Of a stretch of DNA of 64,000 nt, positions 8,771-16,353 are shown piece after piece. The first letter of the stretch is position 1; every line of letters begins with the position of its first letter. Source of the stretch: a bacterium (GTDB lineage: Bacteria; Patescibacteriota; Saccharimonadia; Saccharimonadales; Saccharimonadaceae); assembly GCA_030427525.1 (NCBI GenBank), contig JAUIBD010000001.1, positions 82,628-146,627 on the forward strand, given 5' to 3'. The notes beneath the pieces were generated by a model. The model was not told where the DNA came from. It saw only the letters and a program-made list of their open reading frames with translations, and did no database searches. The translations under genes were made by a program, and so were the position numbers.

Positions 8771-8815
8771 GCATCATAGAGTATTCGGTTATGATAGATG
8801 TGGTTTATCCACCAC

Positions 8816-10480
8816 ATGAAAACAAACAAAAAACTCAACCTGTACATATTTGCCGGTATTTCGGTGTTTTTAGGAGTGCGAGCACTGTCCGTATGGCCGC
8901 AGTATTCATCCGATTTGGAGCTGCCAACACAGCCCATAAGCGAGCATCAATCGATTGGTGGTAGCATAGCTGATACTAAGCGTGAAAAAAATACGTCGGG
9001 CGAGTCGCCTATCAATCAAACCGTTGCTAAGAAAACTACCCCAAGACAGAGAGCTCCGAAACAGGTTGCAATCGCTGATACTATAGCAAAAGAATTTGAG
9101 TACCGTGCGCTGCTTACGAGTAACGACCCGTTAACTTCAACAAGCTGGGCACTCGATGCGGTAAATGCTTCATCTGGCTGGAACACTTCAACAGGAAATG
9201 GTGTTGTCGTCGCTGTAATAGACAGTGGCTTTGGACTGAACCATGAAGATTTACAAAGCCAGTGGTACCAAAACACCGGCGAAACGGGCACGACGAGCTC
9301 CGGCGATACCTGTTGGTCGGGTTCCGCGCAAAATAAAGCAAACAATAATTGTGATGATGACGGCAACGGCTACGTTGACGATTGGCAAGGCTGGAGTTTT
9401 ATTCATACCGATAACAACCCTCAAGCCGGTCGGAGTAACCCTATTGGAGCAGGTGTTAGTCATGGAACTGAGGTAAGTGGTATAGTTGGCGCGGCCGGAA
9501 ATAACGGCAAAGGTATTGCTACAATTAGCTGGAATAATGAAATCATGCCTCTGCAGGTGCTGAGTGATTCAGGTATTGGCTACACCAGCGATGTAGTTGG
9601 GGCGATTTACTATGCTGTAGACAACGGGGCTTCGGTGATTAATATGAGCCTGGGCGGTGACTCTGTTGACCCAGCCATGCAAGCCGCACTAGCCTATGCG
9701 TACAATAACAATGTTGTTGTGGTTGCCGCCGCCGGCAACTGTGGCACAGGTACAGAGTATGGTTGCGACCCAGCAAATCCGGGTGCGATGAGCTATCCTG
9801 CTATTGATCCAACGGTTATCTCGGTAGGCGCCTCCACAAACGGTAACGAACGTGCGAGCTTTAGTAGCTATGGAGCAAATCTTGATGTCGTTGCGCCAGG
9901 AAGCGGTAATATTCGATCAACTGTTTGGACAGAATCAAATGGCACGAATGCATACGTCACAAATCTGTATGGCACATCATTTGCCTCACCGTTTGTCGCC
10001 AGTCTCGCTGGCTTGATTAAGTCGATTCGTCCTAATACTTCTGTTAATGATGTACGCGCGCTGATTGACGCATCAGCACAAAAAATTGGTGCCATGGGGA
10101 GCAATTGGTACACAAACCAGTACGGCCATGGGCTAATCGATGTTTCAACCGCACTCACCGTAGCAAATACCCTACAGACTACTCCTCCATCTCAGCTACC
10201 GACACTCTACCAAACTGCCAACCATAAAACAGAACATCGCTACAGTTCAAATACCTCCTTAACGAGTGGCTGCGAGTTGGCGGAGCAAACATACTGCACT
10301 ATATATGCCGTTGATAGCTCTTCTAGTTTGATCCGATATTTACCGTATGAACTGACTGATACAAATTTTGCGGCGTCGTGGGATTACAAAGGCTCACTTT
10401 TCCCTGCTGGTGGCTGGAGGTTATACGCACAGAGCGGTGAAAAAGAATCATCCAGCGGTCACTGGATGATTCAAAAGTAA
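8816..10480 (+). CDS. secreted subtilisin-like serine protease (S8)
   Basis: This 554-residue protein begins with a basic stretch and a hydrophobic segment (LYIFAGISVFLGVRAL), so it is secreted or membrane-tethered. The subtilase triad is intact: Asp in VIDSGFGLNHED (about 136), His in SHGTEVSGIVG (about 216) and Ser in YGTSFASPFVAS (about 388). The oxyanion Asn is in AAAGN. An acidic CDDDGNGYVDD loop probably binds calcium. About 110 residues follow the catalytic domain and carry two cysteines. The region before the catalytic domain (about 25-105) may be a propeptide. ATG 8816 is preferred over 8798, which lies only 2 nt after a TATGAT -10 at 8790-8795. It probably degrades host or environmental protein for an organism that imports amino acids. 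Confidence 0.92.
   Translation: MKTNKKLNLYIFAGISVFLGVRALSVWPQYSSDLELPTQPISEHQSIGGSIADTKREKNTSGESPINQTVAKKTTPRQRAPKQVAIADTIAKEFEYRALLTSNDPLTSTSWALDAVNASSGWNTSTGNGVVVAVIDSGFGLNHEDLQSQWYQNTGETGTTSSGDTCWSGSAQNKANNNCDDDGNGYVDDWQGWSFIHTDNNPQAGRSNPIGAGVSHGTEVSGIVGAAGNNGKGIATISWNNEIMPLQVLSDSGIGYTSDVVGAIYYAVDNGASVINMSLGGDSVDPAMQAALAYAYNNNVVVVAAAGNCGTGTEYGCDPANPGAMSYPAIDPTVISVGASTNGNERASFSSYGANLDVVAPGSGNIRSTVWTESNGTNAYVTNLYGTSFASPFVASLAGLIKSIRPNTSVNDVRALIDASAQKIGAMGSNWYTNQYGHGLIDVSTALTVANTLQTTPPSQLPTLYQTANHKTEHRYSSNTSLTSGCELAEQTYCTIYAVDSSSSLIRYLPYELTDTNFAASWDYKGSLFPAGGWRLYAQSGEKESSSGHWMIQK
10445..10472. terminator. bidirectional hairpin inside the end of the subtilase gene
   Basis: GAATCATCCAG and CTGGATGATTC form a perfect 11-bp stem with a six-base loop, flanked by AAAA on both sides. 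It lies within the last codons of the subtilase and 20 nt beyond the convergent rny stop, so it may terminate rny transcription and stabilise the subtilase mRNA end. Confidence 0.5.
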
Positions 10481-13030: not shown

Positions 13031-13474
13031 ATGAATCCTCACGTGGAAATCCGATCTGCATCATCTGATGACATTTCTGAAATAGCCGCTCTTGAAAAAG
13101 TACTGCATACATATGAAGTAGACCCCCGTGAACAATGGGCTCACTTTGAAAATAACCCTGATCGTGTGGTGTTACTCGCTTTAGTCAACGGCAAGGTAGC
13201 CGGTATGGTGAAGCTGAATCTTGTATACAAGCTCTCAAAAATTATGGTCATGCTCGACGAGCTGGTGGTCCACGAAGCAAATCGTGGACAAGGTGTTGGC
13301 TCGAACCTGATGGCTGCAGCAGAAGAATGGTCGTGGAGTCGTGGGGCTGATATTATCGATTTTACTAGTCGCGAAGATCACGCAGCGCTTGGCTTTTACG
13401 CAAAACTTGGTTACGAGAAGCGCGACACAAATGTTTACCGAAAACTGCGTGAGGGCTACGATGGCTCGCGTTAA
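13031..13474 (+). CDS. GNAT-family N-acetyltransferase
   Basis: This 147-residue protein is a compact GNAT: VEIRSASSDDISEIAALE at the start, beta strands around VMLDELVVHEANRGQGVGSNLMAAAEEW (the acetyl-CoA-binding RGQGVG loop near residue 92), and LGFYAKLGYEKR near the end. It transfers an acyl group from acyl-CoA to an unknown amine. TATACT at 13018-13023 lies 7 nt before the ATG. The following ATP-citrate lyase gene overlaps it by 14 nt, so a protein using acetyl-CoA is made from the same mRNA as an enzyme producing it; functional linkage is inference. Confidence 0.88.
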   Translation: MNPHVEIRSASSDDISEIAALEKVLHTYEVDPREQWAHFENNPDRVVLLALVNGKVAGMVKLNLVYKLSKIMVMLDELVVHEANRGQGVGSNLMAAAEEWSWSRGADIIDFTSREDHAALGFYAKLGYEKRDTNVYRKLREGYDGSR

Positions 13475-14594
13475 GCTGTCTGAATACCGTGCAAAATCAC
13501 TGCTAGTTGGCGAAGTATATAACGGAGTTTGCTTACATAGCGAAACACTTGAGCAAGATATTGAAAAACTTGATGAACATGCATCGTACATCATAAAAGT
13601 TGACCAAGGCATGAAAAAACGCGGCAAGCAAGGCCTGCTGCGGCTAAATGTCACTGCGCCTGAGGCGCAACCAGCCGTTCAGTCACTGGCTGAAAAAGGT
13701 TTTACGCGTTTTATTGCGGAGCCAATGTTGCCCCACGATGACAGCGAAGAATGTTATGTTAGTTTTGAACGAACAAGAGACGGGATAAAAATTATGTATT
13801 CGGAACATGGTGGTGTCACTGTTGAAGACAAACCAGAGAGTGTCCGGGAGTACAGCATCGATGATGTACCTTTACCTAAATTATTCGTACAGCATGTTAC
13901 TGAGGTAATGAACAACCAACATATGAGTTTTGTGGAAATTAACCCCCTGTTAGTTCGGGGTGAAGAGTGTTTGCTACTGGATGCTGCTGTACTAGTGGAC
14001 AGCGCGGGTGAGTATGAATCATCTTGGAATCAGAATGATATCGTTTCGACAGAAACATTAAGCAAATTGGAACAGGCTATCAAAGATTTGAATAATAATT
14101 CCCCTGCCTCTTTCTCGTTTAAGCTACTTAATCCCGATGCTAGTTTATGGATGCAGCTAATGGGTGGAGGTGCGTGCATTACTATTGCAGACGAAGCTAG
14201 CAATCAACATAAAACACAATATGTTGCTGGATATGGTGAATATAGCGGAGGCCCGAACACAGAAGAAATCTACCTTTACACATCGCGGGTACTTGATCAG
14301 ATGCTCGAGTCGAGAGCAAGCAAAAAAGCGTTTATCATCGCCGGTGGTGCAGCAAATTTTAGTGATGTAAAAGTTATGTTCAAAGGAGTTATTCAGGCTA
14401 TGAAGGAGCGTCAAGCAAGACTATCTAGCCAAAACATAAAGGTCTTTGTGCGTAGAGCTGGACCAAATGAAACTGAAGGTTTGGCGCTTATTTCTGAATA
14501 TTTACATAGAAATGAGATATTTGGTAGTGTGCATGGATCTGAAACAGTACTTACGGATGTAGTTAGCGAAGCCTTGGAGTATGTTGATGCGTAG
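13461..14594 (+). CDS. aclB: ATP-citrate lyase, ATP-grasp subunit (AclB-type)
   Basis: This 377-residue protein matches the ATP-grasp (succinyl-CoA-synthetase beta-like) part of ATP-citrate lyase. Features seen are SEYRAKSLL at the start, FVEINPLLV near residue 155, and a citrate-binding region with GGGACITIADE, YGEYSGGPNTEE, IIAGGAANFSDV and VRRAGPNETEG. The last group is characteristic of ATP-citrate lyase rather than succinyl-CoA synthetase. In two-subunit enzymes this subunit phosphorylates the catalytic His and binds citrate. The start overlaps the GNAT stop by 14 nt and its own stop overlaps the large-subunit start by 14 nt, so all three are translationally coupled. Slightly short compared with the usual ~400 residues. 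Confidence 0.9.
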   Translation: MARVKLSEYRAKSLLVGEVYNGVCLHSETLEQDIEKLDEHASYIIKVDQGMKKRGKQGLLRLNVTAPEAQPAVQSLAEKGFTRFIAEPMLPHDDSEECYVSFERTRDGIKIMYSEHGGVTVEDKPESVREYSIDDVPLPKLFVQHVTEVMNNQHMSFVEINPLLVRGEECLLLDAAVLVDSAGEYESSWNQNDIVSTETLSKLEQAIKDLNNNSPASFSFKLLNPDASLWMQLMGGGACITIADEASNQHKTQYVAGYGEYSGGPNTEEIYLYTSRVLDQMLESRASKKAFIIAGGAANFSDVKVMFKGVIQAMKERQARLSSQNIKVFVRRAGPNETEGLALISEYLHRNEIFGSVHGSETVLTDVVSEALEYVDA

Positions 14595-16353
14595 TATTGA
14601 AGAGATTAGAAACAAACCTGGCACTTGCTTGGTGCTTGGCAACTATCGTCCAGGCATACAAGCCATACTAGATTTTGATCACCTGTGCGGGAAAGAAGCA
14701 CCGTCGATAAAAGCCATAGTTACTGCAGGTACAAAATTCCAAAAGTATTTCTGGGGTAAAGGTGAAGTACTGATACCCTGTTTTCCAACGATGCTTGCTG
14801 CTGCAGATGCAATTGAATCAGTTGAATGGATGTTTAATATTAACTCCGGACGCCGTGCGCGTCAAACCACGATTGAGTTCTTTGATGCCTTTCCTAGCGC
14901 CTTAGGTGGACACATTTTTGCAGAGGATGTACCAGAGAAGCATGCTATTGAGTTATACGAGCGCTATCAAAAAAAGGGTAAAACTCTAGTCGGGACGGCT
15001 GGCGTTGGACTATTGGTTCCAGGCTATCTCAAGCTGGGTGTTGTCGGAGGTGCCGACTGGAGGCAACTCGAAAAGAACAATCTAAAAGAGTCGGGATCTG
15101 TCGCCGTGCTATCAGCGTCAGGTGGCATGATAAATGAAATAATCACCATGGTTGCATCAACCAGTCATGGTATTAGCTTTGCACTATGCTTTGGTGGTGA
15201 TCGTTTTCCTCTGACCTCACCGAAAGATGCGTTCCTTGCGGCGCAGGACGACTCACAAACAAAGCACATCGTGTACTACGGGGAGCTTGGTGGCTATGAT
15301 GAATACGAGCTAGTAGAGCTAATGAAAAGTGGTGCTGTCAGTAAACCCGTCATCTGCTACATATCTGGTGTCATCGGTGAAGCTTTCGATGAACCCGTTC
15401 AGTTTGGACACGCCAAAGCTCTGGCTGGTAACAAATCTGAAACGGCGAGCGCTAAGCGTGCTGCACTTACCGAGGCGGGTGCCATTGTCGCACACTCGAT
15501 GAAAGAATTTTCAGAACGAATTGCTGGAATTGAAAAAGATGAACTAAAGGAGGAAGCGATGAGTTTAGACGGACGCTCAGCGAGTTTATTTACATCGACG
15601 ATATCGAAAGAAACTGAAAACGGCTATGAGTTTGCTGGTTCGTCATTGCCAGACTGGGCACATGAAGGTGATATTGCACTGCAAATTTGCTCAGCACTAC
15701 TAGGTAAACACCCTCAATCACAAATTACAGTAGATTTTATTCGTACCGTGTTTCTACTCTCCGTTGACCATGGACCACAAGTCTCTGGTGCACTGAATAC
15801 GATCGTAACCGCTCGCGCTGGGAAAAACTTGGTTGATTCGTTGGCTGCCGGCCTGATGACTATCGGCCCACGTTTTGGCGGTGCTGTATCTGGCGCAGCA
15901 AATGAGTGGCTGTCGGGGGTTACAGAAGCAAAAGACCCGGCAGAGCATATTGAAAGCTACGCCAAGGTAAAAAAATACATTGCTGGGATTGGTCACAAAA
16001 AATATCGTGTTGGGTTAGAGGACCCAAGGACTGCAATTCTCGCTAAGTTTTCGAATCGGTTGCCAAACCATCGCTACTACGACTACGCGAAGGCTATAGA
16101 AGCCATTACAACCACTAAAAAAGGCTCGTTGATACTAAATGTCGATGGCACGATAGCAGCGCTTATGTTAGATATTCTTGAAAGCGAAGAACACTATAGC
16201 CACCAGGAGCTGAAAGAGTTGGTCGATGCGGACTTCTTCAATGCACTTTTTGTTATTCCTCGAATAGTTGGCTTCACGGCGCATTACCTTGATCAAAAAC
16301 GGCTGGACGAAGGCCTGTTTAGGCTTCCAGACGACGATGTGCTACTAGGGTAA
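14581..16353 (+). CDS. aclA: ATP-citrate lyase, CoA-ligase/citryl-CoA lyase subunit (AclA-type)
   Basis: This 590-residue protein has a CoA-binding/ligase half and a citrate-synthase-like half, as in AclA. The phosphohistidine motif is QFGHAKAL, followed by the family pattern SETASAKRAALTEAGA. The lyase half keeps three catalytic positions known from human ACLY: His in SVDHGPQVSGALNT, His in GIGHKKYRVG and Asp in LILNVDGTIAAL. The end GFTAHYLDQKRLDEGL is also diagnostic. With AclB it converts citrate, CoA and ATP to acetyl-CoA and oxaloacetate in the cytoplasm. A second in-frame ATG is at 14587. No other tricarboxylic-acid-cycle gene is in the window. The pilus operon promoter follows 30 nt downstream. 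Confidence 0.92.
   Translation: MLMRSIEEIRNKPGTCLVLGNYRPGIQAILDFDHLCGKEAPSIKAIVTAGTKFQKYFWGKGEVLIPCFPTMLAAADAIESVEWMFNINSGRRARQTTIEFFDAFPSALGGHIFAEDVPEKHAIELYERYQKKGKTLVGTAGVGLLVPGYLKLGVVGGADWRQLEKNNLKESGSVAVLSASGGMINEIITMVASTSHGISFALCFGGDRFPLTSPKDAFLAAQDDSQTKHIVYYGELGGYDEYELVELMKSGAVSKPVICYISGVIGEAFDEPVQFGHAKALAGNKSETASAKRAALTEAGAIVAHSMKEFSERIAGIEKDELKEEAMSLDGRSASLFTSTISKETENGYEFAGSSLPDWAHEGDIALQICSALLGKHPQSQITVDFIRTVFLLSVDHGPQVSGALNTIVTARAGKNLVDSLAAGLMTIGPRFGGAVSGAANEWLSGVTEAKDPAEHIESYAKVKKYIAGIGHKKYRVGLEDPRTAILAKFSNRLPNHRYYDYAKAIEAITTTKKGSLILNVDGTIAALMLDILESEEHYSHQELKELVDADFFNALFVIPRIVGFTAHYLDQKRLDEGLFRLPDDDVLLG

Follow-up and report, generated by a model that had tools for sequence, protein, structure and literature searches.

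An ATP-citrate lyase operon with an overlapping GNAT gene in Saccharibacteria and its possible role in UDP-GlcNAc synthesis

What ATP-citrate lyase (ACL) is for in a bacterium without a TCA cycle is the question raised by three consecutive genes of the window, the whole stretch of 64,000 nucleotides analysed here; it lies on a 201-kb contig of a Saccharibacteria assembly of 996 kb (29 contigs, 93% complete), in keeping with the reduced, CPR-like genome surmised in an earlier note on this DNA. The occurrence of aclAB in Saccharimonadia is already known, since a 2025 study lists the genes among those enriched there (PMC12577380); a 2019 study, in the passages concerned with the enzyme, describes the ACL of a Gracilibacterium as rare in CPR (PMC6851277). 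The reading proposed here, with a probability of about 0.6, is that acetyl-CoA produced by AclAB from probably imported citrate feeds the neighbouring GNAT, which would acetylate glucosamine phosphate for UDP-GlcNAc and peptidoglycan. This would give ACL a concrete purpose in bacteria devoid of a TCA cycle, and it proposes a candidate enzyme for the acetylation needed in CPR UDP-GlcNAc synthesis, for which CPR genomes otherwise appear to have none.

The locus and the identity of the enzyme

The open reading frames for GNAT, AclA and AclB form a block on the plus strand, as first described:

13031..13474, plus strand: GNAT acetyltransferase, 147 aa (Pfam Acetyltransf_1, 2.5e-17), proposed glucosamine-phosphate N-acetyltransferase
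13461..14594, plus strand: aclA, 377 aa, ATP-grasp (compact) and citrate-binding subunit of ATP-citrate lyase (Citrate_bind, 2e-43)
14581..16353, plus strand: aclB, 590 aa, phosphohistidine/CoA-ligase domain fused to a citryl-CoA lyase domain (Pfam, PDB matches, alignment)

Overlaps of 14 nt had been claimed at both junctions; this holds for GNAT/AclA, while the overlap of AclA and AclB is 14 or 8 nt according to the start codon (ATG at 14581 or in-frame ATG at 14587), and in close relatives it is likewise 8 or 14 nt. A foreign origin of the contig had been considered possible; contamination is ruled out by the synteny of the contig with other Saccharibacteria, to which the named relatives sharing the window synteny belong, and the GC content of the genes (0.451) matches that of the window (0.447), so that the locus is regarded as resident. 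Orthologues are 64-77% identical, with dN of 0.17-0.30 and a saturated dS that allows no dN/dS ratio; these values indicate purifying selection and therefore a locus that is not due to chance. Near the locus, at 8798-10480, the window also encodes a subtilisin-like serine protease that is not found in the syntenic stretch of another genome (G303, L032).

The region 13461-16353 encodes, almost certainly as judged from alignments and structural models, a complete two-subunit ACL with putative activity. AclA joins the citrate-binding domain to an ACL ATP-grasp domain (2e-26) and keeps the Mg/ATP residues E159, N161 and D174 and the RR-GPN motif of the citrate site; in the alignment it departs from the human citrate-site loop GGSIANF at one position, where Gly replaces Ser. 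AclB combines a CoA-ligase domain, with the phosphohistidine H277 in the loop VQFGHA, and a fused citrate-synthase-like domain, that of citryl-CoA lyase, whose two catalytic His and one Asp (H397, H472 and D522) align with H900, H975 and D1026 of human ACLY; the earlier statement that both subunits are present with these elements intact is thus borne out. Among proteins of solved structure, human ACLY and the Methanosaeta ACL are nearest in sequence (8e-105 for AclB, 4e-49 for AclA), and the best fold match of the AlphaFold model of AclA is human ACLY with citrate (Z 33.5), in comparison to about 24 for the beta subunit of succinyl-CoA synthetase. A grouping with the latter enzyme, which had been named as a possible objection, is rejected by this difference in fold and by the lyase domain of AclB, which is not expected in a succinyl-CoA synthetase alpha subunit; the PDB sequence matches also place the window enzyme nearer to ACL. 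On the basis of the conserved residues and fold, AclAB would phosphorylate itself with ATP, convert citrate and CoA to citryl-CoA and cleave this intermediate to acetyl-CoA and oxaloacetate.

Domain order, phosphohistidine loop, citrate-binding and lyase residues and the AclA fold are shared with the two-subunit archaeal and Chlorobium enzymes (Methanothrix 6hxi, Chlorobium 6hxj) and with human ACLY. Unlike these, the window enzyme belongs to a separate clade, exclusive to CPR bacteria and with a long stem; it is only about 30-39% identical to non-CPR enzymes, its AclA is about 40 residues shorter than the human and archaeal counterparts and, in contrast to the archaeal/Chlorobium type, no reductive TCA cycle surrounds it. 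The same chemistry is distributed over separate proteins in Hydrogenobacter, which has a citryl-CoA synthetase and a citryl-CoA lyase, while the window enzyme is of the fused AclB type.

Distribution and relationships in CPR bacteria

An AclB-type protein is present in 13 of 380 sampled CPR genomes, in one case broken and in another cut by the end of the contig. A wider scan of 84,980 species yielded 48 CPR loci (41-77% identity) in Saccharibacteria, Levy-, Woese-, Roizman-, Kaiser-, Magasanik- and Uhrbacteria and others, the next best matches being Cloacimonadota, archaea and Aquificota at 36-39%. In a tree of 83 AclB sequences, built by a quick method and containing long branches, the CPR sequences form one clade of 46 rows (SH-aLRT 100, stem 1.24). 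This divergent clade occurs only in CPR bacteria and is apparently new. Saccharibacteria fall in three places inside it, and the group of the window AclB is sister to a Kaiserbacteria/Parcubacteria group (support 100); this pattern suggests transfers of aclAB among CPR lineages. A few other CPR genomes have ACLs outside the clade; two of these, from G252 and G039, fall among archaeal and human-type enzymes. In G039 this ACL is encoded in a cluster with genes for aconitase and an isocitrate dehydrogenase-like protein (L043:1249-8566), an arrangement that might allow acetyl-CoA to be made reductively from 2-oxoglutarate.

Individual loci depart from the common layout. In G009, whose genome is devoid of glmS, aclB is interrupted into two frames beside an intact aclA (L170:10001-11763, equal to L039:9716-11478), and in a Woesebacteria locus (L158:10001-11812) it is split into a CoA-ligase gene and a citryl-CoA lyase gene, an apparent fission to the two-enzyme layout. 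In two related CPR genomes an archaeal-type PEP carboxylase gene is located three genes upstream of aclA (L140:168-5171 and L166:2671-7815).

Gene neighbourhood and a possible replacement of GlmU

The genes around aclAB in the 48 CPR-clade loci were counted as near (within 3 genes) or far (at least 5 genes away, 490 genes). GNATs occur 20 times near and never far, and the same holds for GlmS (5 vs 0), GlmM (3 vs 0), GlmR (2 vs 0) and acyltransferase-3 (3 vs 0), MurB being found 5 times near and once far; Fisher's test gives 4e-10 for the GNATs and, for the amino-sugar set, 1e-6, uncorrected for relatedness among the loci. Among representatives, GlmS, YvcK/GlmR and MurB exceed the NCBIfam cut-offs and GlmM falls just below (435.9 vs 447.6 bits). 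GNATs of two subfamilies (c5 and c8) lie directly upstream of aclA, and the window subfamily also adjoins aclAB in other CPR loci. The order AclA-AclB-GlmM-GNAT is found in L167, L169 and G219, and that of GlmR, HAD/GNAT fusion, AclA and AclB in L176; in the latter the fusion of a HAD phosphatase-like domain to the GNAT (L176:7645-8817) overlaps glmR and directly precedes aclA, and glmR adjoins HAD-like genes in L146 and L229 as well. In CPR bacteria whose SucC-like, SucD-like and citryl-CoA lyase genes are separate, GlmS, GlmR and a GNAT stand beside them (L044, L045, L046, L234).

The replacement of aclAB by another acetyl-CoA generator is observed in relatives. Two Saccharibacteria without aclAB carry a Pta-GlmM-GNAT operon with a GNAT of the window subfamily, and in three others Pta stands behind acyltransferase-3, as aclAB does in L154, L162 and L187. 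Among 33 Saccharibacteria and near relatives, aclAB and Pta are never found together, and intact aclAB or Pta is present in 12 of 20 genomes with GlmS and in none of the 13 lacking it (p=5e-4, uncorrected). Eight GlmS-bearing Saccharibacteria, including a genome of the same genus (G336), possess neither, and another acetyl-CoA route must therefore exist. The coupling of aclAB to GNATs is well supported, and the hint in the earlier note that the acetyl-CoA serves acylation is much strengthened by the presence of GNATs beside aclAB in many CPR lineages and by the exchange with Pta.

As regards the acceptor, GlmU (TIGR01173) reaches its cut-off in none of the 380 CPR genomes, and many have only the nucleotidyltransferase half. 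The collinear loci of two sister genera (G079 and G093), whose shared genes are 62-80% identical, adjoin citryl-CoA synthetase/lyase genes; that of G079 encodes a stand-alone GlmU acetyltransferase half (TIGR01173 positions 249-438, 6e-69), of which G093 has no copy, the GNAT standing there instead. One genome (G323) contains a GNAT together with an LbH-bearing nucleotidyltransferase. From this genome context we infer that the substrate of the GNAT is glucosamine phosphate: the enzyme would use acetyl-CoA for the N-acetylation of glucosamine-1-phosphate or glucosamine-6-phosphate, replacing the GlmU acetyltransferase half that is missing from the own genome and apparently from most CPR bacteria, and its product would be converted to UDP-GlcNAc and then used for peptidoglycan. 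The proposed acetyl-CoA-dependent reaction is that of the GlmU acetyltransferase half and of eukaryotic GNA1. GlmU, however, employs a left-handed beta-helix domain, none of which was found in the window system, and the window GNAT is not, by sequence, specifically close to GNA1. Its AF2 model (pLDDT 91) has a GNAT fold of GNA1 type, with which many GNATs tie in a fold search that singles out no substrate class; a profile search includes GNA1 entries among the matches (human 3cxp, 9e-12; 3fb3, which we take to be T. brucei GNA1, 7e-16), and generic GNATs rank higher. The UDP-GlcNAc reading is weakest at three points: the eight GlmS-bearing genomes in which no acetyl-CoA source is recognised, the citrate transporter missing from the own genome, and this generic character of GNAT sequence and fold. 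The combination of genes in G323, the position of glmS and the glmM-like gene apart from aclAB in the own genome and the 93% completeness of that assembly also speak against it.

These data also bear on the possibility that AclAB is a general acetyl-CoA supply and that the GNAT has a different target (another amino sugar, the N-terminus of a protein, a polyamine or an antibiotic). The breadth of GNAT families, the generic best PDB matches and the variety of neighbours, with two GNAT subfamilies and acyltransferase-3 genes, are consistent with it; the repeated linkage to GlmM, GlmS, GlmR and MurB, the Pta-GlmM-GNAT operons and the alternation of GlmU half and GNAT make it unlikely. A broader form of the preferred reading, for which the chances appear evenly balanced, is a modular UDP-GlcNAc cassette of CPR bacteria, in which an interchangeable acetyl-CoA generator (ACL, citryl-CoA synthetase/lyase or Pta) would be combined with a GNAT acting on glucosamine phosphate, host citrate being a source of cell-wall acetyl groups.

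Citrate, acetyl-CoA and the metabolic setting

The earlier note had supposed that a TCA route to citrate is lacking, and the searches agree with this: E. coli-based queries for citrate synthase, aconitase and isocitrate dehydrogenase had no match in the own genome, whose assembly is 93% complete. PDH, PFL, PFOR, Acs, Pta, PduL, EutE and Kbl were not found there either, and ACL is the sole acetyl-CoA source recognised. Consumers of acetyl-CoA are few, because the E. coli-based search recovered no fatty-acid synthesis in the own genome and HMG-CoA synthase is absent from the 20 genomes searched, including this one, which also rules out the mevalonate pathway as a sink; Acetyltransf_1 GNATs number only five. 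The genome encodes GlmS, a GlmM-like mutase, acetate kinase and glutamate dehydrogenase (E. coli-based search), together with malic enzyme, GlmR and the peptidoglycan proteins MurB, MurC-G, MraY, FtsI, FtsW and Ddl; glmS and the glmM-like gene are located away from aclAB. In the proposed coupling the locus would act as a dedicated acetyl-CoA generator joined to its consumer, and the oxaloacetate may conceivably yield pyruvate through the malic enzyme.

Since no route to make citrate was found, the host or the surroundings are its most likely source. E. coli CitT had no significant match in the own genome and no canonical citrate transporter was recognised; its large membrane proteins resemble, by eye, MFS, EamA, NRAMP, MMPL, oxidases and others. 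The bacterium is probably host-dependent, and citrate is a candidate metabolite tying these bacteria to hosts or neighbours. The Gracilibacterium BD1-5 is likewise a CPR bacterium with an ACL and citrate assumed to be imported; its enzyme is reported as archaeal-like, UDP-GlcNAc is predicted to be taken up from outside, and the parts of that paper dealing with the enzyme draw no link to a GNAT or UDP-GlcNAc (PMC6851277). Among the papers searched, none was found that ties ACL, GNAT and UDP-GlcNAc together in CPR bacteria; the CPR-specific clade and the GNAT/UDP-GlcNAc coupling thus appear to be new.

In the same passages the Gracilibacterium ACL is interpreted as serving the catabolism of imported citrate (PMC6851277), with acetyl-CoA as a by-product and oxaloacetate feeding the formation of pyruvate or amino acids. 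Malic enzyme in the own genome would suit this role; nevertheless, PEP carboxykinase, malate dehydrogenase and an AspC-type enzyme had no match in the E. coli-based search of the own genome, and Pta, which makes no oxaloacetate, replaces aclAB in equivalent operons, so that catabolism as the main role is improbable. ACL is reversible in principle, and its operation as an ATP-yielding citrate synthase could be connected with the PEP carboxylase of L140 and L166, which counts against the UDP-GlcNAc reading in that it would fit other carbon flows; this reversal is nonetheless very improbable in the own genome, where neither an acetyl-CoA source nor a citrate-using enzyme was found. A related tricarboxylate as substrate, suggested by the long stem of the clade and the altered loop, is hardly to be expected of an enzyme that keeps the citrate-binding domain and the RR-GPN motif and has lost none of the catalytic residues of the lyase.

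Other features of the own genome accompany these genes. The acetate kinase (C2:47370-48500) has no recognisable Pta or PduL partner, PduL having been considered for this orphan enzyme and discarded as absent. Alpha/beta-like subunits of a rotary ATP synthase are encoded in two sets (C22:49175-53362 and C2:190587-194558), and proteins of this 1-Mb genome resemble, by eye, bd and haem-copper oxidases.
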